From Streptomyces achromogenes (lineage in GTDB: Bacteria > Actinomycetota > Actinomycetes > Streptomycetales > Streptomycetaceae): 64,000 bases of DNA. Below, piece after piece: positions 20,536 through 29,599 of the stretch; position 1 is the stretch's first letter, and each line of letters starts with the position of its first letter. The notes under the pieces were generated by a model. The model was given only the letters and a program-made list of their open reading frames with translations, was not told where the DNA came from and ran no database searches. The position numbers were made by a program, and so were the translations under genes. The DNA is taken from assembly GCF_030816715.1 (NCBI RefSeq), contig NZ_JAUSYH010000001.1:2666001-2730000 (forward strand). Reading direction: 5' to 3'.

Positions 20536-21159
20536 ATGAACACCGACCCGCTGCCCCGGCCCCAGCCCGGGTCCTCGACCCCGCCCGACCCCGGCTCTTC
20601 GCCTCCGCCCCACCCCGCCTCCCCGCCCGACCCCGGCTCTTCGCCTACGCCCGACCCCGCCTCCCCGCCCGACCCCGGGTCCTCGCCTCCGCCCGACCCC
20701 GCCTCCCCGCCCGACCCCGGGTCCTCGACCCCGCGGACCGGCGACCCGGCCGAACTCTGGGCCACCGTCGACGCCCTCCGTGCCTGGCTGGACGCCGGGC
20801 GCGTGCACGACGGCCTCGACGGACTGCTGCTGCGCGTACTGAAGCTGTCGGAGGAGGTCGGTGAGGTCGCCCAGGCGGTCATCGGCGCGACCGGGCAGAA
20901 CCCGCGCAAGGGCGTCACCCACACCTGGGACGACGTCCGGAGTGAGCTGTGCGACGTGATCATCACGGCGCTGGTCGCCCTGCGCACCCTGACGCCGGAC
21001 GCGCAGGAGGTGTTCGCGGCACATCTGGCGCGGGTGGCGGAACGGTCCCTCGGCGGCGCGGGCGAGCCCCGGGACGAAGGCCGAACTCCGTTCACGGAAC
21101 CGTCCGCCCTCGTATCGCGTACCTCTGTACGATCACCGCACGCGAAGCGGGGGCGCTGA
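20536..21159 (+). CDS. MazG-like nucleotide pyrophosphohydrolase with proline-rich N-terminal repeats
   Basis: A 207-residue protein. Residues 10-68 are tandem copies of a PPDPGSSP-like unit, a disordered proline-rich arm. The rest matches the MazG-like all-alpha NTP pyrophosphohydrolase fold: LLLRVLKLSEEVGEVAQAVIGATGQNP (the ExxE metal site in KLSEEVGE) and ELCDVIITALVALRTL (the second acidic ExxD-type site). MazG enzymes hydrolyse nucleoside triphosphates, often as house-cleaning. The repeat arm is unusual and probably variable between strains. Confidence 0.85.
   Translation: MNTDPLPRPQPGSSTPPDPGSSPPPHPASPPDPGSSPTPDPASPPDPGSSPPPDPASPPDPGSSTPRTGDPAELWATVDALRAWLDAGRVHDGLDGLLLRVLKLSEEVGEVAQAVIGATGQNPRKGVTHTWDDVRSELCDVIITALVALRTLTPDAQEVFAAHLARVAERSLGGAGEPRDEGRTPFTEPSALVSRTSVRSPHAKRGR
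20571..20745 (+). repeat. Coding tandem repeat (CCGCCCGACCCCG-based) in the MazG-like gene
   Basis: About five imperfect units of roughly 33-39 bases, each containing CCCGCCCGACCCC followed by GG(C/G)TC(T/C)TCG(C/A)C. They encode alternating PPDPGSSP / PPDPASP segments. Unit divergence is low, as expected of a slippage-prone tract. Confidence 0.75.
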
Positions 21160-21248
21160 GGCGGAGGGGCGGGCATGGACGACAACACAGGCAGACGCAG
21201 GTCGACTTGGCTGAGAGCCACGGCGTCGGCGGCCGCGGGGGTGAGGCG

Positions 21249-23348
21249 GTGTCCGGGTACGGTCCGCTGTCGGAGGCCGGGGTACGGCTGCTCGGCGCGC
21301 GGCTGGCCGAGGCGCTGGGCGAGGTGCACCGGGCGGGACTGGTGCACCGGGACCTGAAGCCGGGCAATGTGCTGATCGCCCACGACGGGCCCCGTCTCAT
21401 CGACTTCGGCATCGCCCGCGCCCCGGAGGACACGGCGCTCACCGCGACCGGCCTGGTGGTCGGCACCCCCGGCTATCTCTCGCCCGAGCAGGCCACGGGA
21501 CCCGGTGGCGATGCCATCGGGCCGGCGAGCGACGTGTTCTCCCTCGGCTGCGTCCTGGCGTTCGCGGCGACCGGCCGTGCGCCGTTCGGCAGCGGAGCGG
21601 TGGACGCCCTGCTGTACCGGGCGGCGCACGATCCGGCGGACCTGGACGGGATCCCGGCGGCGCTGCGCGAAGTGGTGGAAGCCTGCCTGGAGAAGGACCC
21701 GGCCAGGCGTCCGGACGCCGCGGAGCTGGTGCGGCGGTTGACGGCCGAGGGCGGGCCGCAGAGCGGGCCGCGGGACGAATCCGACAGCGACCCACAGGAC
21801 GGACCCCAGGGTGACCCGCGGATCGCACTGCAGAGGGCACCCCAGGAAGAGCAGAAGGTCGAGCCGCAAGACGAGCCGCAGGACGAGCGGGCGTCCGGAT
21901 GGCTGCCCGAGCCGGTCACCCGGCTGATCGCCGAGCGGTCGGCCGCCGCGCTCGCCCTGCCGGACATCGAGCACACCCAGGTCACCGCGTCCTCCCCGGC
22001 ACGGTCCGGCGCGGGATCGGAAACCCCGCCGGACACCGCTTCCGACGTACAGGACACACCCCCAGACCAGGCCTCCGACGGGCAGGCGGCCGGGCAGCCC
22101 GACCCGCAGAACGCCCGCCCGCCCGGCCGACGCCGCTTCCTGCTGCTCGCCGGCACTGCCGCGGCGGTCGCGGCGGGCGCCGGCGGCACGGCCTGGTGGG
22201 CGACGACCCGGGACGACGACGCGAAGGGCGCCACGCCCGCCGCCGCACGGCGGCCCGTGCACACCCTCGCACTGCACGGCGACCTCAGCGGCCCGCATCA
22301 GGCGACGGGCCGGGCGCAGGAGCGCGGACTGCGGCTGGCCGTCGCGGAGTTCAACGCGCGCGGCGACGCCCCGTTCACCGTGAAGGTCCGGGCCGTCGAC
22401 GACAAGGGCGACCCGGCGACCTCGACCCGGCTCGCCGCGGAACTCGCGGCCGACCCATCGGTCCTCGCCGTGGTCGGTCCCACCACCGACGCCACGGCGC
22501 AGGCGGCGCTCGGGAAGTACGCCGCCCGGGGGCTGCCTGCCGTCGCCGTGTCCCCCGGCAGCATGAGCCTCGTCATCCAGGGTTTCAGCTCGTTCCTGCT
22601 CGGTCGGCTGCCCGACTCGGTGCTCGCCCTGTACATGAGCAACTACCTTCGCGGCACCGGCCGTTCGCGCAAGGTCGGCCTCGTCGTCGACCGTCCGGCC
22701 GGTAACTACGGGACGGACCTCGCCACGTCCCTCAGCACGCAGCTCAACAACGCGCAGCTGCCCGCCGTGCCGGAGGTGGTCAGCGCGATGCGCGACGACT
22801 TCGGCAACGTGGTGGACGCGGTGCTCTCGGCCGGCGCCGACTCCGTGTTCTTCGCCGGACTGCCCGACCGGGGCGCACTGATCGCCGCGGCTTTGCGGCA
22901 ACGGTCCTTCCAGGGTGCGCGGGTGTCGGGCCCGGCACTGCTCGACGCCCGGTTCCTGACCACTGCTCAGCAGGACGCCGAGGGCTGGGCGATGGTGGCT
23001 CCGGTCATCGACGCGACCCGCAAGCCCGAGGCGGCGAAGTTCGCGGCCGCCTACCGCGAGCGCTTCAAGGAGGCGCCGCCCCGGTACGCGGCGGAGTCCT
23101 ACGACGTGAGCGGGATGCTGCTGAAGGCCCTGTCCGGGCTGCCGGCGAAGAGCCGCACCCGCAAGAACCTCCACGAAGCCGTGCTGACGGGGAAGTACCA
23201 GGGCATCACCAAGCAGTTCGCCTTCGATCTGACCAACCCCCAGTTGGCCAGGTCCGGCCTGATGGCCGTCGACGGCACCGGCGGCTTCCTCTGGCGGGTC
23301 GAGAAGGGCGCCTTCGTGTACGGCGGCCCCGCGCCGCTCGTCGTCTGA
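21249..23348 (+). CDS. Kinase/ABC-type substrate-binding receptor, N-lobe missing (probable pseudogene or pseudokinase)
   Basis: First of two tandem paralogues. Reading from a GTG at 21249, the protein begins inside the kinase domain just before LVHRDLKPGN (catalytic loop), LIDFGIARA (DFG) and LSPEQ. The glycine loop and VAIK lysine, present in the downstream copy, are absent. After a Pro/Asp/Gln-rich linker come an RRRFLLLAGTAA transmembrane segment and an extracellular Leu/Ile/Val-type periplasmic-binding domain to the end. The well-placed ATG with GGAGGGG at 21175 is in another frame and dies after 60 codons. This suggests a deletion plus frameshift at the 5' end. The rest is open and conserved. 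Confidence 0.75.
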   Translation: MSGYGPLSEAGVRLLGARLAEALGEVHRAGLVHRDLKPGNVLIAHDGPRLIDFGIARAPEDTALTATGLVVGTPGYLSPEQATGPGGDAIGPASDVFSLGCVLAFAATGRAPFGSGAVDALLYRAAHDPADLDGIPAALREVVEACLEKDPARRPDAAELVRRLTAEGGPQSGPRDESDSDPQDGPQGDPRIALQRAPQEEQKVEPQDEPQDERASGWLPEPVTRLIAERSAAALALPDIEHTQVTASSPARSGAGSETPPDTASDVQDTPPDQASDGQAAGQPDPQNARPPGRRRFLLLAGTAAAVAAGAGGTAWWATTRDDDAKGATPAAARRPVHTLALHGDLSGPHQATGRAQERGLRLAVAEFNARGDAPFTVKVRAVDDKGDPATSTRLAAELAADPSVLAVVGPTTDATAQAALGKYAARGLPAVAVSPGSMSLVIQGFSSFLLGRLPDSVLALYMSNYLRGTGRSRKVGLVVDRPAGNYGTDLATSLSTQLNNAQLPAVPEVVSAMRDDFGNVVDAVLSAGADSVFFAGLPDRGALIAAALRQRSFQGARVSGPALLDARFLTTAQQDAEGWAMVAPVIDATRKPEAAKFAAAYRERFKEAPPRYAAESYDVSGMLLKALSGLPAKSRTRKNLHEAVLTGKYQGITKQFAFDLTNPQLARSGLMAVDGTGGFLWRVEKGAFVYGGPAPLVV

Positions 23349-25558
23349 TGGAGCCGCTGCGCACCGGCGACCCGTCCCGGCTCGGCCGCTACCGACTGCT
23401 GCGGCGGCTGGGCGCCGGCGGCATGGGCGTCGTCTTCCTGGCCCGTGCGCCGGGCGGGGCGATCGCCGCGGTCAAGACGGTGCGGGCCGCGTACGCGGAG
23501 GAACCGGGATTCCGGGCCCGGTTCCGCCGCGAGGCGCAGGCCGCCCGGCAGGTCCACAGCCCCTGGGTGGTGCCGCTGCTGGACGCCGACGCCGACGCGG
23601 AGACGCCGTGGCTGGCGACCTCGTACGTGCCGGGCCCGTCGCTCTCCGAGACGGTGGAGGTCTTCGGGCCGCTGTCGGTCACCTCCGTGCGGGTGCTCGG
23701 GATCCGGCTCGCCGAAGCCCTCGACGCGGTCCACGCGGCGGGACTCGTGCACCGCGACGTGAAGCCGGGCAACGTCCTGCTGGCCCCGGACGGGCCGCGG
23801 CTCATCGACTTCGGCATCGCCCGCGCCCCGGAGGCCACGGCGCTCACCTCCAGCGGCGTCATCGTGGGCTCGCCCGGCTTCCTCTCACCCGAGCAGGCAC
23901 GGGCGCGCGGCGGGGAGATCGGCCCGCCCAGCGACGTGTTCTCGCTGGCGTGCGTGCTCGCGTTCGCCGCGACCGGGGTACGGCCCTTCGGCGACGGCGG
24001 GGCTGCGGGCGTGCTGCTGCGCACGGTCTACGAGGAGCCGGACCCGGCCGCGTTCCCGGACGCCCTGGCGCCCCTGCTGACATCCTGCCTGCACAAGGAC
24101 CCGGCCGCCCGCCCCGACCTCGCCCGCCTGCGAGCGGAACTCGAGGCGGGCGTCGGCCCCGGGCCGGGCGGCACGGCGGGGTGGCTGCCCGAGCCGGTCG
24201 CCCGCCTGATCAGCGACCGGTCCGCCGCCGTGCTCGCCCTCGACGCCGTCGAGCCGACCCAAATGTCCGCGCCGGCGAGCACGGTGTCCCCGGACGCCCC
24301 GACGATGACAGCCGTCAGAGCCGCACCGTCCGTCGCACCCGGCATCCGCCGTCGCAGCTTCCTGCGCCTCGGATCGACGGCCGGGGTCCTCGCGGCCGGT
24401 GGCGGCGGAGCCTGGTGGTGGAGCACCCGCAGCGGTACGCCGACGACGCCGACGCCCGTGGCGAGCGCGCGTCCCGAACTGGTCGTCGCGTTCCAGGGCG
24501 ACCTGACCGGACCCGCGAAGGACAGCGGGAACGCCCAGCTCAACGGCGCCCGGCTGGCCGTCGAGCAGATCAACGCCCAGAGCGGCCGTCCCCTTCGTCT
24601 GAAGCTGGTCCCGTACGACGACGGCGGCGACCCGGCCCGGGCCGCGAGCCTGGCCGGGCGGCTGGTGAAGGACGCCGGCGTCCTCGCGGTGGTGGGGCCC
24701 ACCACCGACGCGTGCTTCCTGCGCACCGAGGCCGCGTACACCAAGGCGACGATGCCGGTGGTCACCGTCTCGGTGGACGTCAGTCTCGACGGCAGGTCCT
24801 TCGGCTACGACCAGTTCCGCTCCCACGCGGCGCTGCACGTCGAGAGGACGCTCCTCGCCGCCCCCTGCGTCCGCTACCTCAGCAACCACGTCGACGCGCG
24901 CAAGGTGTTCCTGGTGGACGACCGAGCGCAGGGCGACACCGCCTGGAAGCTGTGCGACCTGGCCCAGAAGGGACTGCGGAGCGCAGGTCGGCAGGCGACG
25001 CTGACCAGCGTCCCCGCCGGGAAAATCGATTACAGGGCGCTGGCCGCGTCGGTGCTGTCCGCGGGCGCGGACGCGGTCGTGTGCACGGGCGACCCGGCGC
25101 GGACCGCGGGACTGGCCTCCGCCCTGAAGGCGGCCCGATTCACCGGCACCTGCATGGCCACGGAACAGGCCTTCGGCCCCGGATTCCTCGCCGCCGCCGG
25201 GGCGGCCGCGACCGGCTGGATCTTCGCGACCTCCTTCGTCGACCCCACGGTCCGCCCGTCCGCCCGCGCCTTCGCCGCCGCCTACCGCACCCGGTTCGGC
25301 GCCGCCCCCGGCTGGTACGCGGCCGAGGCCTACGACGCCGTGATGTTCCTGGCGGCGGTCTGCGCACAGGACGGCACGGCTCTGAGGGAGCGCGGCGCGA
25401 TCGCCCACCGGCTGCCCGAGGTCAAGCACACCGGGATCACCCGCACCGTCAAGTACAGCCAGGGGAACGGCTACAACAACGACGCGATGTTCCTCTACGA
25501 GGTCGCCGACGGCACGTTCCACTACCTCGGCCAGTACAAGGAGGCGGCGGTGTCGTGA
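23348..25558 (+). CDS. Receptor-like Ser/Thr protein kinase fused to an ABC-type substrate-binding domain
   Basis: A 736-residue one-piece sensor kinase. Cytosolic kinase domain (about residues 13-270): glycine loop LGAGGMGVVF, VKTV lysine, HRDVKPGN catalytic loop, DFG in LIDFGIARA, SPEQ. A short linker leads to RRRSFLRLGSTAGVLAAGGGGAWWW, the membrane segment. The outer domain (about 375-736) is a type-1 periplasmic-binding fold of the branched-chain amino acid type (VVAFQGDLTGP, VVGPTTDA, GWYAAEAYDAV). A ligand outside probably controls phosphorylation inside. The ATG overlaps the upstream stop by one base (TGATG), so translation is coupled. Two amino-acid permeases follow nearby. Confidence 0.9.
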   Translation: MEPLRTGDPSRLGRYRLLRRLGAGGMGVVFLARAPGGAIAAVKTVRAAYAEEPGFRARFRREAQAARQVHSPWVVPLLDADADAETPWLATSYVPGPSLSETVEVFGPLSVTSVRVLGIRLAEALDAVHAAGLVHRDVKPGNVLLAPDGPRLIDFGIARAPEATALTSSGVIVGSPGFLSPEQARARGGEIGPPSDVFSLACVLAFAATGVRPFGDGGAAGVLLRTVYEEPDPAAFPDALAPLLTSCLHKDPAARPDLARLRAELEAGVGPGPGGTAGWLPEPVARLISDRSAAVLALDAVEPTQMSAPASTVSPDAPTMTAVRAAPSVAPGIRRRSFLRLGSTAGVLAAGGGGAWWWSTRSGTPTTPTPVASARPELVVAFQGDLTGPAKDSGNAQLNGARLAVEQINAQSGRPLRLKLVPYDDGGDPARAASLAGRLVKDAGVLAVVGPTTDACFLRTEAAYTKATMPVVTVSVDVSLDGRSFGYDQFRSHAALHVERTLLAAPCVRYLSNHVDARKVFLVDDRAQGDTAWKLCDLAQKGLRSAGRQATLTSVPAGKIDYRALAASVLSAGADAVVCTGDPARTAGLASALKAARFTGTCMATEQAFGPGFLAAAGAAATGWIFATSFVDPTVRPSARAFAAAYRTRFGAAPGWYAAEAYDAVMFLAAVCAQDGTALRERGAIAHRLPEVKHTGITRTVKYSQGNGYNNDAMFLYEVADGTFHYLGQYKEAAVS

Positions 25559-25618
25559 ACCGGGGAGTGCCCTCACCCCCCACCGGCCCGGACGAGGGGG
25601 CGGCCGTCGACGCGTCGC

Positions 25619-27091
25619 TCACTCCGCGTCGGCGACGACCGAGCCGACCCGGTCGGCAAGGCCCGGATCACGTCGGACCAGGAGCGTCGCGTAGCAGACG
25701 GCCGCGACGAGGGTGCCCAGAGCCGCGTACGGGAACCAGCTGTACGGGGCGGGCTGTCCCGGCTTGGCGAGATAGTACAGCGGGACCAGTACGGCAAGGG
25801 CGCCGGCCGCGGGCAGCACCACATGCCGCACGATCCGGAACTCCTGCGGACGGTACCTGCGGTAGTACAGCGGCAGCGCGATGTTGGACGCGAGGTAGAC
25901 CAGCAGGATCAGGATGGCGCCCAGGCTCGACGACTCGGCGAAGAACACCACCGGGTTCATCTGACCGCCGTCGGCTCCGAGCACATGCCCCAGACCCCAG
26001 CCGACGATGATCAGCAGCGCGGTCGCGGCGAAGGTGACGATCGCGTTGTTCGGCGTACGGCGCGTGGGGTGCACATAGCCGAAGAAGGACGGCAAGAGCC
26101 CCTCACGTCCGGCGTTGAACACCAGCCTGGCCTGGGAGTTGATGCCCGCGATCAGCACGCCGAGGGTGGAGGTCAGGCCGCCGACGTAGGCGAGGAGGGC
26201 GAGCGCCCCCAGCGTGTGCTGGGCGACGTCGATGAAGGGGATCCGGGAGTCTCCGAGCCGCTGCACGTCGTAGCCGAAACCGGTGACCGTGGCGTAGGAG
26301 AAGAGGATGTAGCTCACCGTCATGATCGCGACGGAGGAGAACACGGCGCGGCCGACGTTGCGCCGCGGGTTCTCCGTCTCCTCGGCCAGTGCCGCCGAGT
26401 TCTCCCAGCCGATGAACAGGTACACCGCCAGCGGGAAACCCGCCGCGAGGCCCCTGACGCCGTGGGTGAGGTGGGAGGGCAGGAACGGAGCGACGGAGAG
26501 GTCGCCCCGGTGCTCGAAGAGTGCTGCGACCGAGACCACGACCAGGACGAGCATCTCGACGCCGAAGAAGTAACCGGCCCACTTGGTGGACACCACGATC
26601 CCGCGCAGCATCAGCACCACCGACAGGCCGGTCAGCAGCACCGTCCAGATGATCCACGGCAGGTCGACGCCGGTGTAGTGGTTCAGGGTGATCTGCATGA
26701 ACCCGCCGGAGATCGCGATGACGGAGGCCATCGCGATGATGTAGCCGAGTCCCGCGAGCAGCGCCGTGGTCACGGCGCTGACCGGGCCGAAGGTCTTGCC
26801 GACGAAGGTGGTGAAGCTGCCCGCCGAGGGGTGCGCCCGGGAGAACTCGGCCAGCGTGTTGCCGAACAGCGCGACCGCCGCGCCCGCCGCCATGATGGTC
26901 AGCGGGGAGGCCACTCCCGCCGTGGTGGCGAGGAAGGCGAAGCCGAAGAAGAAGCTCATGGCCGGGCCGACGTTGGCCATCGTGGCCGCGGCGATGTCCG
27001 CCATGCCGAGGACGCCGCCGCGCAGGCGCTGGGGCGTGCCGTCGGCGCGTCCCGACGTCGGCGGCGGCCCGGCGGATCCGGACTCGGTCAT
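25619..27091 (-). CDS. APC-family amino-acid permease
   Basis: A 490-residue transporter with about 12 membrane helices. The amino-acid/polyamine/organocation pattern is seen in LGMADIAAATMANVGPAMSFFFGF (TM1 region) and GWENSAALAEETENPRRNVGRAV in the loop after TM6. It probably imports an amino acid or amine; specificity unknown. It lies downstream of the GntR regulator gene on the same strand, separated by repeated sequence, and ends convergently with the kinase gene. Confidence 0.9.
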   Translation of the reverse strand: MTESGSAGPPPTSGRADGTPQRLRGGVLGMADIAAATMANVGPAMSFFFGFAFLATTAGVASPLTIMAAGAAVALFGNTLAEFSRAHPSAGSFTTFVGKTFGPVSAVTTALLAGLGYIIAMASVIAISGGFMQITLNHYTGVDLPWIIWTVLLTGLSVVLMLRGIVVSTKWAGYFFGVEMLVLVVVSVAALFEHRGDLSVAPFLPSHLTHGVRGLAAGFPLAVYLFIGWENSAALAEETENPRRNVGRAVFSSVAIMTVSYILFSYATVTGFGYDVQRLGDSRIPFIDVAQHTLGALALLAYVGGLTSTLGVLIAGINSQARLVFNAGREGLLPSFFGYVHPTRRTPNNAIVTFAATALLIIVGWGLGHVLGADGGQMNPVVFFAESSSLGAILILLVYLASNIALPLYYRRYRPQEFRIVRHVVLPAAGALAVLVPLYYLAKPGQPAPYSWFPYAALGTLVAAVCYATLLVRRDPGLADRVGSVVADAE

Positions 27092-27112
27092 GACGGCAAC
27101 TCCCTTCCGAGA

Positions 27113-27250
27113 GGTCGGTTCGGTTCGGCTCTGCGGGTTCAGTTCGGTTCGGCTTTTTGGGGGGTCAGTTCGGTTCGGCTTTGGGGCTCAGTTCGGTTCG
27201 GCGCTGCGGGACGGGTTCGGTTCGGCTCCGAGAGCCCGGTCCGGTTCGGC
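27113..27250 (+). repeat. Six imperfect copies of a GTTCGGTTCGGCT repeat
   Basis: Units of about 22-26 bases with the core GTTCGGTTCGGC begin near 27113, 27140, 27166, 27189, 27213 and 27235. They fill the gap between the permease start and the GntR gene and extend into the GntR coding end, where they encode the AEPN tail. Confidence 0.8.
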
Positions 27251-27934
27251 GTGCCGGTGCGCCTTCACCGCTCGTACCGCCGGGTCCATCGCGCCGCGGC
27301 CGAGTTCGTCGAGCAGGTCCAGGTGGCAGCGGTTGCGGGCCCGTACGACCGCGGGGTCCGGCGCGGGCCCCAGCAGGCACTGCTTGCCGAGCAGGTCGGC
27401 GGCGAACTCCCTGATCCCGGCGCCGCCGAGGGTCTCCGCGAGGTCGAGGTGGAAGCGGGTCTCCAGTTCGAGCAGCCGGGCCGGGTCGTCGGCCAGGTTC
27501 ATCTCCTCGACCAGCGCCCGCAGCCCGTCGAGCCGGCTGTCGGTCAGCTCGCCCGCGGTGTGCGCGACGAGCCCGCATTCGAGCAGCAGATGGAAGGAGT
27601 CCAGGGCGGCCGCCTCGTCGGCGTCGTACATCACGGCGACGACCGCGTCCCAGTCGGCGGCGACGAAGGTCCCGCCGGCCCGGCCCCGACGGCGGTCGAG
27701 CAGGCCGTCCTGGCACATGACCTCCAGCGCGCGTCGCACGGTGATCTCACTGATCCCGAGCTCCTCGGCGAGGACCCCCGCGTCCGGCAGCCGGTCCCCC
27801 GGCGAGACGGACCGCAGCCGCACCCGCAGAGCGATCCGGGACCGGACGAGCTCCGCTCCTGTGGGACCCCGGCCGGCCAGGACGCGTGTGTCCCAGCCGC
27901 TGTAGGGGCCGAACTTGCCCGGTGCATTCACCAC
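27188..27934 (-). CDS. GntR-family regulator (FadR/FCD subfamily)
   Basis: A 248-residue repressor. The N-terminal winged helix has VLAEELGISEITVRRALEVMCQDGLLDRRRGRAGGTFV (recognition helix EITVRRAL). The C-terminal all-helical FCD domain contains FHLDLAETLGGA and ARNRCHLDLLDELGRG with His candidates for metal or ligand binding. The last 15 or so residues (AEPNPSRSAEPN) come from an invading tandem repeat. It probably controls the adjacent permeases. A matching palindrome lies in the divergent promoter region. Confidence 0.88.
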   Translation of the reverse strand: MVNAPGKFGPYSGWDTRVLAGRGPTGAELVRSRIALRVRLRSVSPGDRLPDAGVLAEELGISEITVRRALEVMCQDGLLDRRRGRAGGTFVAADWDAVVAVMYDADEAAALDSFHLLLECGLVAHTAGELTDSRLDGLRALVEEMNLADDPARLLELETRFHLDLAETLGGAGIREFAADLLGKQCLLGPAPDPAVVRARNRCHLDLLDELGRGAMDPAVRAVKAHRHAEPDRALGAEPNPSRSAEPN

Positions 27935-28040
27935 GGCGCCACCTTAACGGCCTGGCGAGCGGGGTCACGGTGTGGTCCACAGAGGCTCCCGGAAGAGACG
28001 GTTCCGCGCTGGCACGAAAAATAGAGCAAGGTGAACAGTT

Positions 28041-28055
28041 AAACAAGTCTTGTTT
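28041..28055. promoter_or_regulatory. Palindrome AAACAAG-T-CTTGTTT, likely GntR operator
   Basis: A perfect 7-1-7 palindrome in the 186-base divergent region between the GntR gene and the second permease. The region is AT-rich for this genome. FCD-type GntR proteins bind short dyads containing TTGT/ACAA. The location fits control of both genes. A T-run overlaps its right arm. Confidence 0.55.
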
Positions 28056-28120
28056 TTTTCGATCGCACTGAACTAATTTCCAGACGCTCCTGGTCCGTCC
28101 TCCCTGTCCGTCCTCCCTCC

Positions 28121-29599
28121 ATGGATGTCGAGATGACCACAACCGTCCCCAAAACCCCTCCCGCGGAGTCCGGCGAGCCCGGTGGCTCCGACGGCTCCGG
28201 CGGCCTCCAGGCCGGACTCAAGAACCGCCACCTGTCGATGATCGCGATCGGCGGTGTCATCGGCGCCGGGCTGTTCGTCGGCTCCGGCTCCGGCATCGCC
28301 GCCGCCGGCCCCGGCATCCTCGTCTCGTACGCGCTCGTCGGCGTCCTCGTCGTCCTCGTGATGCGCATGCTCGGCGAGATGGCCGCGGCCAACCCCACCT
28401 CGGGTTCGTTCTCCGCCTACGCGGACCGCGCGCTGGGCCGCTGGGCCGGCTTCACCATCGGCTGGCTGTACTGGTTCTTCTGGGTCGTGGTGCTCGCCGT
28501 CGAGGCGACCGCCGGGGCGAAGATCCTGGCCGGCTGGGTCCCCGCGGTGCCGCAGTGGGGCTGGGCCCTGATCGTCATGATCGTCCTGACCGCCACCAAC
28601 CTGGTCTCGGTCAGCTCCTACGGCGAGTTCGAGTTCTGGTTCGCCGGCATCAAGGTCGTCGCCATCGCCGCGTTCATCGCGCTCGGCGGCCTGGCGATCT
28701 TCGGACTGCTGCCCGGCTCCGACCACCCGGCGAGCGGTTTCTCCAACCTCACCGCACACGGCGGCTTCCTCCCCAACGGCCCCGGCGCGATCCTCACCGG
28801 CGTCCTGATGGTCGTCTTCTCCTTCATGGGCAGCGAGATCGTCACCCTGGCCGCGGGCGAGACCGCCGACCCGCGGGCCGCCGTCACCAAGGCCACCAAC
28901 AGCGTGATCTGGCGGATCGCGGTGTTCTACCTGGGCTCGATCCTGATCGTGGTGTCGCTGCTGCGCTGGAACGACCCGGCGATCCTGAAGGACGGCTCGT
29001 ACGTCGCCGCCCTCAGCTCCATCGGCATCCCGCACGCCGCCCAGATCATGAACACCATCGTGCTGACGTCGGTGCTGTCCTGCCTCAACTCGGGCCTGTA
29101 CACCGCCTCGCGCATGGCCTTCTCGCTCGGTCGCCGAAGCGACGCCCCGGCCGCCTTCGGACAGACCACGGGCCGCGGCGTGCCGCGCGCAGCCATCCTG
29201 GCCTCAGTCGTCTTCGGGTTCGTCGCCGTCGCCTTCAACTACCTCTGGCCCGACACGGTCTTCCAGTTCCTGCTCAACGCCTCCGGCGCGATCGCCCTGT
29301 TCGTCTGGCTGGTGATCTGCTTCTCCCAGCTGCGGATGCGCAAGATCATCGAGCGGGAGTCACCGGAGAAGCTGGTCGTCCGGATGTGGCTCTACCCCTA
29401 CCTGACCTGGGCGACCATCGCCCTGATCACCTTCGTCCTCGGCTACATGCTCACCGACACGGCCGACGGCGGCGGCCGCGACCAGGTGGTCCTGTCCACG
29501 GCGGTGGCCGCGGGCGTGGTGGTCTTCGCGGTGGTACGCGGCCGCCTGTCGGCGAAGACCAGGGCACGGGAATCCGCCGACACGGCTCCCCTGTCCTGA
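28121..29599 (+). CDS. Amino-acid permease (GABA permease/AnsP-like)
   Basis: A 492-residue APC-superfamily transporter of the amino-acid transporter (AAT) type. TM1 signature: LSMIAIGGVIGAGLFVGSG; conserved GSFSAYADRALGRWAGFTIGWLYWFFWVVVLAVEATAGA in TM3; FSFMGSEIVTLAAGE in TM6. About 12 helices with a short hydrophilic N-terminus. The second ATG (28133) is an equally possible start. Resembles GabP/AnsP, which import GABA or asparagine with protons. Divergent from the GntR regulator. Confidence 0.92.
   Translation: MDVEMTTTVPKTPPAESGEPGGSDGSGGLQAGLKNRHLSMIAIGGVIGAGLFVGSGSGIAAAGPGILVSYALVGVLVVLVMRMLGEMAAANPTSGSFSAYADRALGRWAGFTIGWLYWFFWVVVLAVEATAGAKILAGWVPAVPQWGWALIVMIVLTATNLVSVSSYGEFEFWFAGIKVVAIAAFIALGGLAIFGLLPGSDHPASGFSNLTAHGGFLPNGPGAILTGVLMVVFSFMGSEIVTLAAGETADPRAAVTKATNSVIWRIAVFYLGSILIVVSLLRWNDPAILKDGSYVAALSSIGIPHAAQIMNTIVLTSVLSCLNSGLYTASRMAFSLGRRSDAPAAFGQTTGRGVPRAAILASVVFGFVAVAFNYLWPDTVFQFLLNASGAIALFVWLVICFSQLRMRKIIERESPEKLVVRMWLYPYLTWATIALITFVLGYMLTDTADGGGRDQVVLSTAVAAGVVVFAVVRGRLSAKTRARESADTAPLS

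Follow-up and report, generated by a model that had tools for sequence, protein, structure and literature searches.

A recent deletion in a conserved lipoprotein and receptor kinase operon of Streptomyces achromogenes

An ordinary recent deletion, affecting two genes, interrupts an operon of Streptomyces achromogenes whose ancestral form comprises three genes, namely those of a lipoprotein and two receptor kinases. The operon was studied within a stretch of 64,000 nucleotides (the window; coordinates refer to it unless a locus is named), which spans positions 2666001-2730000 of contig C1. According to the account that we favor, the ancestral operon would have encoded an exported lipoprotein followed by receptor kinases 1 and 2, with translation coupled by 1-nt overlaps. 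After the split from the relative G241, ∼1.08–1.09 kb would have been lost and codon 21 of the lipoprotein gene joined, out of frame, to approximately codon 100 of kinase 1, leaving no lipoprotein and a kinase 1 without its ATP-binding lobe. The junction would have created a strong ribosome-binding site before an internal GTG at 21249, from which a headless kinase 1 (C-lobe, linker, anchor and binding domain) would still be made, with ribosomes passed on to the start of kinase 2, which lacks a Shine-Dalgarno (SD) sequence. Kinase 2 would then be the sole working receptor remaining in this operon. We put the probability of the account of the deletion and the operon, taken as a whole, at about 0.72.

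Two receptor kinases in tandem

The first-pass annotation had described tandem paralogues that join a Ser/Thr kinase to a membrane segment and a ligand-binding domain, and Pfam bears this out: Pkinase and Peripla_BP_6 scored above cutoff in copy 1 and copy 2 alike, and in each copy a Hanks-type kinase and a periplasmic-binding domain are parts of a single polypeptide. The features of the pair are as follows:

21249..23348, plus strand: copy 1, a receptor of 699 aa with decapitated kinase, membrane anchor and binding domain (putative GTG start)
21264-21734, plus strand: Pkinase C-lobe of copy 1 (Pfam)
21755..22125 (limits approximate), plus strand: variable cytoplasmic linker of copy 1 with abundant D, P and Q repeats; its length and repeats vary among relatives, the length even among close ones
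22128..22193, plus strand: copy 1 membrane anchor, weakly hydrophobic, with its twin-arginine-like motif (RRRFLLLAGTAAAVAAGAGGTA; motif scan)
22269-23249, plus strand: Peripla_BP_6 of copy 1 (Pfam)
23346..23350, plus strand: TGATG, the one-base overlap of the copy 1 stop and copy 2 start as given by their coordinates (putative translational coupling)
23348..25558, plus strand: copy 2, a receptor of 736 aa with intact kinase, membrane anchor and binding domain (Pfam)
23390-24124, plus strand: Pkinase of copy 2 (Pfam)
24350..24418, plus strand: copy 2 membrane anchor with its twin-arginine-like motif, RRSFL (read from the sequence)
24485-25513, plus strand: Peripla_BP_6 of copy 2 (Pfam)

The match of copy 2 covers positions 1-255 of the Pkinase profile, and its catalytic domain is complete, whereas the match of copy 1 begins only at position 94 of 263. 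Since copy 1 lacks profile positions 1-93, the glycine loop and the catalytic lysine are missing, a loss that had already been noticed from the sequence alone. HRD and DFG are still present in copy 1, the N-lobe is entirely absent and the catalytic domain is incomplete; the protein is presumably catalytically dead, and kinase 2 is the copy that would signal. A structure model of copy 2, based on an 11-row alignment, was too poor for a fold search (mean pLDDT 54.0, pTM 0.37); the domains were assigned by Pfam. The NCBIfam model StpK7/MSMEG_1200 matched only the kinase part of copy 2 (127 bits versus a cutoff of 900).

The solved sequences nearest to the outer domains were of the LivJ type; 4gnr matched copy 1 at E=1.7e-19 and copy 2 at 9e-20. 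When copy 2 is aligned with the Escherichia coli leucine-binding protein (1usg), an Asp stands where that protein has Ser79, a ligand-contact residue, and Glu226, another such residue, is retained as Glu. Copy 1, read by eye, also shows an Asp in the corresponding stretch.

As regards the neighboring genes, two amino-acid permease genes adjoin the receptor pair (25619-27091, minus strand, and 28121-29599, plus strand), and a gene for a GntR/FCD regulator lies nearby (27188-27934, minus strand). This neighborhood (25619-29599) is collinear in the relatives G241, G125 and G391. On the other side, a small gene (20536-21159) without a Pfam match contains a 42-bp tandem repeat (20553-20734, 3.7 copies, 93% matches), which encodes the proline-rich N-terminal part of its product.

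Deletion of the kinase 1 head

The sequence around the start of copy 1 contains the following features:

21117..21174, plus strand: conserved operon leader and probable promoter region, near-identical in the window, G241, G125 and G391 and close in G122
21162-21169, plus strand: SD of the lipoprotein gene, CGGAGGGG, −10.0 kcal/mol, with 5-nt spacing to ATG 21175
21175..21238, plus strand: 5′ remnant of the lipoprotein gene (MDDNTGRRRSTWLRATASAAA, then cut), homologous to its first 21 codons in G241 and G125
21175..21357, plus strand: out-of-frame fusion open reading frame (ORF) of 60 aa, in the reading frame of ATG 21175
21237..21244, plus strand: SD-like GGGGGUGA across the junction, before GTG 21249, −13.5 kcal/mol
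21238..21239, no strand: deletion junction, from alignment to G241, G125 and G391

Alignment with the three nearest relatives located the lesion. At the junction, the window lacks 1,092 bp that are present in G241, 1,086 bp present in G125 and ∼1,080 bp present in G391; both flanks are collinear with these genomes except for a few indels, and the two joined segments align cleanly right to the junction. The join reads ...CGCGG plus GGG..., clear microhomology was not seen there, and position 21242, a T here and a C in the relatives, was changed independently. The extra DNA of the relatives is the remainder of the lipoprotein gene together with the N-terminus of kinase 1. Kinase 1 has lost codons 1 to ∼99, and GTG 21249 is its native codon 103.

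The same picture was obtained when positions 21100-23400 were used to search 392 genomes of the genus. Among the matches listed, the best were G241 (93%), G125 (92%) and G391 (84%), all of which begin at query base 140, that is, at window position 21239; upstream homology to these relatives stops at 21238-21241, beyond the ∼1.08–1.09 kb of extra DNA. A second search (21175-21800 against 60 genomes around G241) again placed the beginning of the G241 match at 21239, and only the G062 kinase began clearly earlier among the matches listed. The matches that began before the junction (G120, G062 and G199, among the matches listed) were fetched and proved to be full-length kinases. The same lesion was found neither among the matches listed from the 392 genomes nor in 14 fetched relatives, which were those best matching copy 1. 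Judged from these comparisons, the headless form is derived, through a deletion of ∼1.08–1.09 kb that is absent from the three nearest relatives, and the deletion is more recent than the split from G241 (dS between the window and G241 was 0.066 for copy 1 and 0.099 for copy 2). A second upstream difference, at ∼21066-21071, where G241, G125, G391 and G122 carry roughly 145-250 extra bases, was kept apart from the lesion because this stretch varies among relatives and the leader after it is intact.

In all 14 relatives the distance from the kinase 1 ATG to the HRD codon is exactly 402 nt (in three, a further ATG, GTG or TTG lies within 9 nt of this ATG). Thus, with a full-length start in every relative, the short form is not an effect of annotation. 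Another genome, MNU76, was left out of these 14 because an assembly error is likely: its kinase 1 has a full N-lobe, the frame breaks later, and the lipoprotein frame is unreadable. Among 170 distinct ORFs for HRD kinases in the collected loci, 163 passed a regular expression for the glycine loop and lysine, 3 were cut by the end of the locus and 4 were flagged, namely window copy 1 and the ORFs of L070, L093 and L100. The N-lobe is visible in the sequences of the latter three (in L070, Asp replaces the first loop glycine), which leaves window copy 1 as the sole headless kinase among the 167 that could be scored.

The ancestral operon

The first-pass annotation had pointed to a good ATG and SD at 21175 in the wrong frame. 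The SD is indeed strong and the ATG is out of the kinase frame, but the start is that of another gene. In G241 and G125, the counterpart of ATG 21175 is the first codon of a gene (286 and 284 codons, respectively) that encodes a lipobox and ends in TGATG at the kinase 1 start. ATG 21175 is therefore in the wrong frame because it belongs, with its SD, to the upstream lipoprotein gene, the remainder of which has been deleted, and the 60-aa fusion ORF probably specifies a nonsense peptide. The sole lipoprotein match in the own genome was partial and weak (E=0.0052, positions 2-73 of 261); hence no intact copy was found. The leader (21117..21174) contrasts with the variable stretch before it and probably contains the promoter. 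A consensus (sigma-70) scan of 20900-25900 returned no promoter or terminator, which is weak evidence in Streptomyces.

The order lipoprotein, kinase 1 and kinase 2 was observed in all of the 14 best-matching relatives. The lipoprotein stop overlaps the kinase 1 ATG by 1 nt in 14 of 14, the lipoprotein start being uncertain in several of them, and the kinase 1 stop overlaps the kinase 2 ATG by 1 nt in 12 of 14. A profile of seven lipoprotein sequences was then searched in 61 genomes (the own genome included, without a match), and 15 of them contained matches at E up to 1e-6. The 17 matches below 1e-40 came from 14 of the 36 further genomes of the genus, and the 24 genomes from outside it yielded no such match; in 17 of 17 a kinase gene directly follows the lipoprotein gene; two weak matches outside this set, G049 (3.9e-11) and contig C11 of G048 (6.3e-8), lie at loci where the regular expression found no kinase. 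With matches in 14 of 36 genomes, the operon is widespread in the genus, not universal.

The lipoprotein was characterized from intact homologues in relatives, one of which is the following:

L149:11411-12271, minus strand: lipoprotein gene of a relative, analyzed with its homologues; no Pfam family, model like the PknH sensor and TiME

A lipobox signal peptide is present (LLGGC in G241), in which G28 and C29 are invariant in all seven aligned sequences; apart from the lipobox, the same alignment contains two invariant cysteines. No Pfam family was found at E up to 10, and NCBIfam matches were far below cutoff, the best being StpX (1.6e-4) over the low-complexity residues 9-72. Among solved structures, too, the seven-sequence profile retrieved no related sequence (E up to 10).

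An AlphaFold model of the lipoprotein (mean pLDDT 65.6 and pTM 0.64, the five models ranging from 32.6 to 65.6) matched TiME (7cu9, Z 14.6; 7cu8, Z 14.5) and the PknH sensor (4esq: Z 14.2, rmsd 3.8, 171 residues aligned, 16% identity; Foldseek E=9.7e-05), with the next entry at Z 10.4. As read in G241, the predicted fold of the lipoprotein thus resembles those of the PknH sensor and TiME, although likeness in fold does not establish a common function. This sensor domain also occurs in the PknH-like lipoproteins LppH, LpqQ, LprH and LpqA, and two disulfides have been reported for PknH (PMC4118811). The likeness of the deleted lipoprotein to PknH and these lipoproteins lies in the modeled fold; in contrast to the PknH sensor, it has no Pfam match, low identity and two invariant cysteines rather than two disulfides, and it cannot be assigned to the PknH_C type by Pfam sequence match and two disulfides.

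Translation of the remnant and of kinase 2

The SD energy at GTG 21249 is −13.5 kcal/mol, as compared with −4.4 kcal/mol at the homologous codon in G241, G125 and G391, which makes expression from this codon, as raised in the first-pass annotation, plausible. An SD this strong precedes only 6 of 1929 ATG, GTG or TTG sites on the plus strand of the window (itself included), and it should be noted that it came to attention post hoc, from a handful of in-frame starts that include TTG 21207 with its weak SD (−3.8 kcal/mol). Across the 14 relatives, the mean SD energy is −9.65 kcal/mol for kinase 1 and −1.56 kcal/mol for kinase 2, compared with −3.99 kcal/mol at random window sites, and the strongest kinase 2 SDs (−5.0 and −8.4 kcal/mol) belong to the two genomes in which kinases 1 and 2 do not overlap. 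The copy 2 start in the window has no SD ahead of it.

Considering the strong SD at the junction and the lack of one before kinase 2, translation of the headless copy probably continues and would carry ribosomes to kinase 2; its main effect may be to keep kinase 2 translated. On the other hand, the 60-aa ORF, which has a strong SD of its own, overlaps GTG 21249 and may hinder initiation there. Taken alone, we regard translation of the remnant together with a coupling role as an even bet, which overlaps with the plain decay of the operon considered below.

Alternative explanations

If the operon were simply decaying, its front would be silenced, copy 1 would be an untranslated pseudogene and copy 2 would be poorly made or dead. 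Such decay would fit the joint loss of the lipoprotein and the kinase N-lobe, the deletion of the native kinase 1 start and SD, the entry of the strong 21175 start into a wrong-frame ORF and the missing SD of copy 2. We consider it possible but rather unlikely, given the 699 codons over which copy 1 is open and the strong SD before GTG 21249. The ratio of nonsynonymous to synonymous changes in copy 1 also speaks against decay, as it is 20:16 on the window branch and a matching 20:19 on the sister branch (Fisher P=0.82), although so few changes allow recent neutrality. The ratios for copy 2 were 21:26 and 28:31, respectively, and those of copies 1 and 2 on the window branch did not differ significantly (Fisher P=0.38, few changes). 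The substitutions thus indicate neither relaxation nor new constraint and, being few, do not distinguish a remnant that is retained from one that is decaying; too little time has passed since the deletion for selection to be visible. The first-pass annotation had proposed that copy 1 serves as a pseudokinase partner of copy 2. A functional partner or decoy, for example in heterodimers formed through the membrane and binding domains, would be in keeping with the intact anchor and binding domain of copy 1, the presence of the tandem pair in many relatives and the good SD ahead of GTG 21249. However, a pseudokinase keeps the two-lobed fold and loses catalytic residues, whereas copy 1 lacks the whole N-lobe; no other genome among the matches listed and the 14 relatives carried this lesion, and there was no sign of selection for a new role. 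This partnership is therefore possible but unsupported, and we judge it quite improbable.

An assembly or sequencing artefact, with the full operon really present, could be suspected because the lesion occurs in a single genome and the sequence at the junction is GC-rich and repetitive. It would be very improbable in a genome assembled as a single contig of 9.17 Mb, with completeness rated at 100% and contamination at 0%, with flanks collinear with the relatives and both segments aligned cleanly up to the junction. That the gene is naturally short, with orthologues sharing its start, has next to no chance of being true, as all 14 fetched relatives start full-length and copy 1 is the only headless kinase of the 167 scored. 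The first copy is thus decapitated, as the first-pass annotation had stated, by a deletion at 21238/21239 and was not born short.

A twin-arginine motif before the membrane anchor

Both copies carry a twin-arginine-like motif at the membrane anchor, and an 11-row alignment of orthologues of copy 2 has both arginines in every row. We compared kinase ORFs that extend for 500 residues or more beyond HRD, 42 with a binding domain like that of the window (33 loci from related genomes, hence not independent; window copy 1 included, window copy 2, which was cut, excluded) and 42 without. The pattern RR.[FLIVM][LVIM] before the membrane segment was found in 42 of 42 binding-domain kinases and 18 of 42 others, and the strict form RR.F[LVIM] in 32 and 3, respectively; shuffled segments gave 3.36 of 42 for the loose form and 0.34 of 42 for the strict form. 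Since 17 of the 42 other kinases have the loose pattern beside a membrane segment, only the strict form separates the groups clearly.

The anchor segment is weakly hydrophobic (mean hydropathy 1.47, in a comparison biased towards a difference because a fixed segment was taken in binding-domain kinases and the best segment in the others), and R or K follows it in 39 of 42. A twin-arginine motif, a weakly hydrophobic segment and then positive charge are thus found together, and the own genome has one TatC match (E=7.4e-66). Low hydrophobicity and positive charges after the segment have been described as marks of Tat-dependent internal segments (PMC5449189), and the pattern found here suggests that the binding-domain kinases may be inserted by Tat. 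The actinobacterial Rieske protein Sco2149 is similar in its internal twin-arginine motif, weakly hydrophobic segment and following positive charges; it differs in that two Sec-inserted segments come first, whereas the receptor kinases apparently have one segment behind a cytosolic kinase. The word kinase is absent from the main text of that paper (PMC5449189).

Relation to known receptors and implications

The one-piece binding-domain kinase is already in print. A kinase and a solute-binding domain in one chain were reported in 2005, with examples from S. coelicolor and Nostoc (PMC1262709), and another such receptor, MSMEG_1200, is described as conserved in several Mycobacterium and Streptomyces species, a further 260 cases being mentioned (PMC6069109). 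The receptors studied here share this architecture and differ in forming two tandem copies behind a lipoprotein gene. In the mycobacterial GlnH-GlnX-PknG system, an extracytoplasmic amino-acid-binding protein has been proposed to control a Ser/Thr kinase of the same operon (PMC6069109); there, three separate polypeptides serve as binding protein, membrane protein and kinase, whereas here a single one combines kinase, anchor and binding domain. In the open-access literature surveyed, we found neither a lipoprotein-kinase-kinase operon nor Tat signals of such kinases described, and the conserved three-gene receptor operon seems little described. It is conceivable, if doubtful, that the operon specifies an undescribed two-layer nutrient receptor, in which two kinases with Tat-exported folded LivJ-type domains would cooperate with a dedicated lipoprotein of PknH-sensor fold; the present strain would then be a natural mutant in which the junction start keeps the remaining receptor expressed, and a Tat signal anchor would sit behind a folded cytosolic kinase.

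The deletion itself is ordinary; it is the operon and the twin-arginine pattern that deserve further attention. If the twin-arginine motif works, signaling receptors would join the Tat-inserted membrane proteins, and the motif would explain how a domain can be exported from behind a folded kinase. Through the deletion, the locus becomes a unit open to experiment, comprising a lipoprotein and two receptor kinases inherited as a set, and the lipoprotein becomes a candidate partner of the binding-domain kinases.
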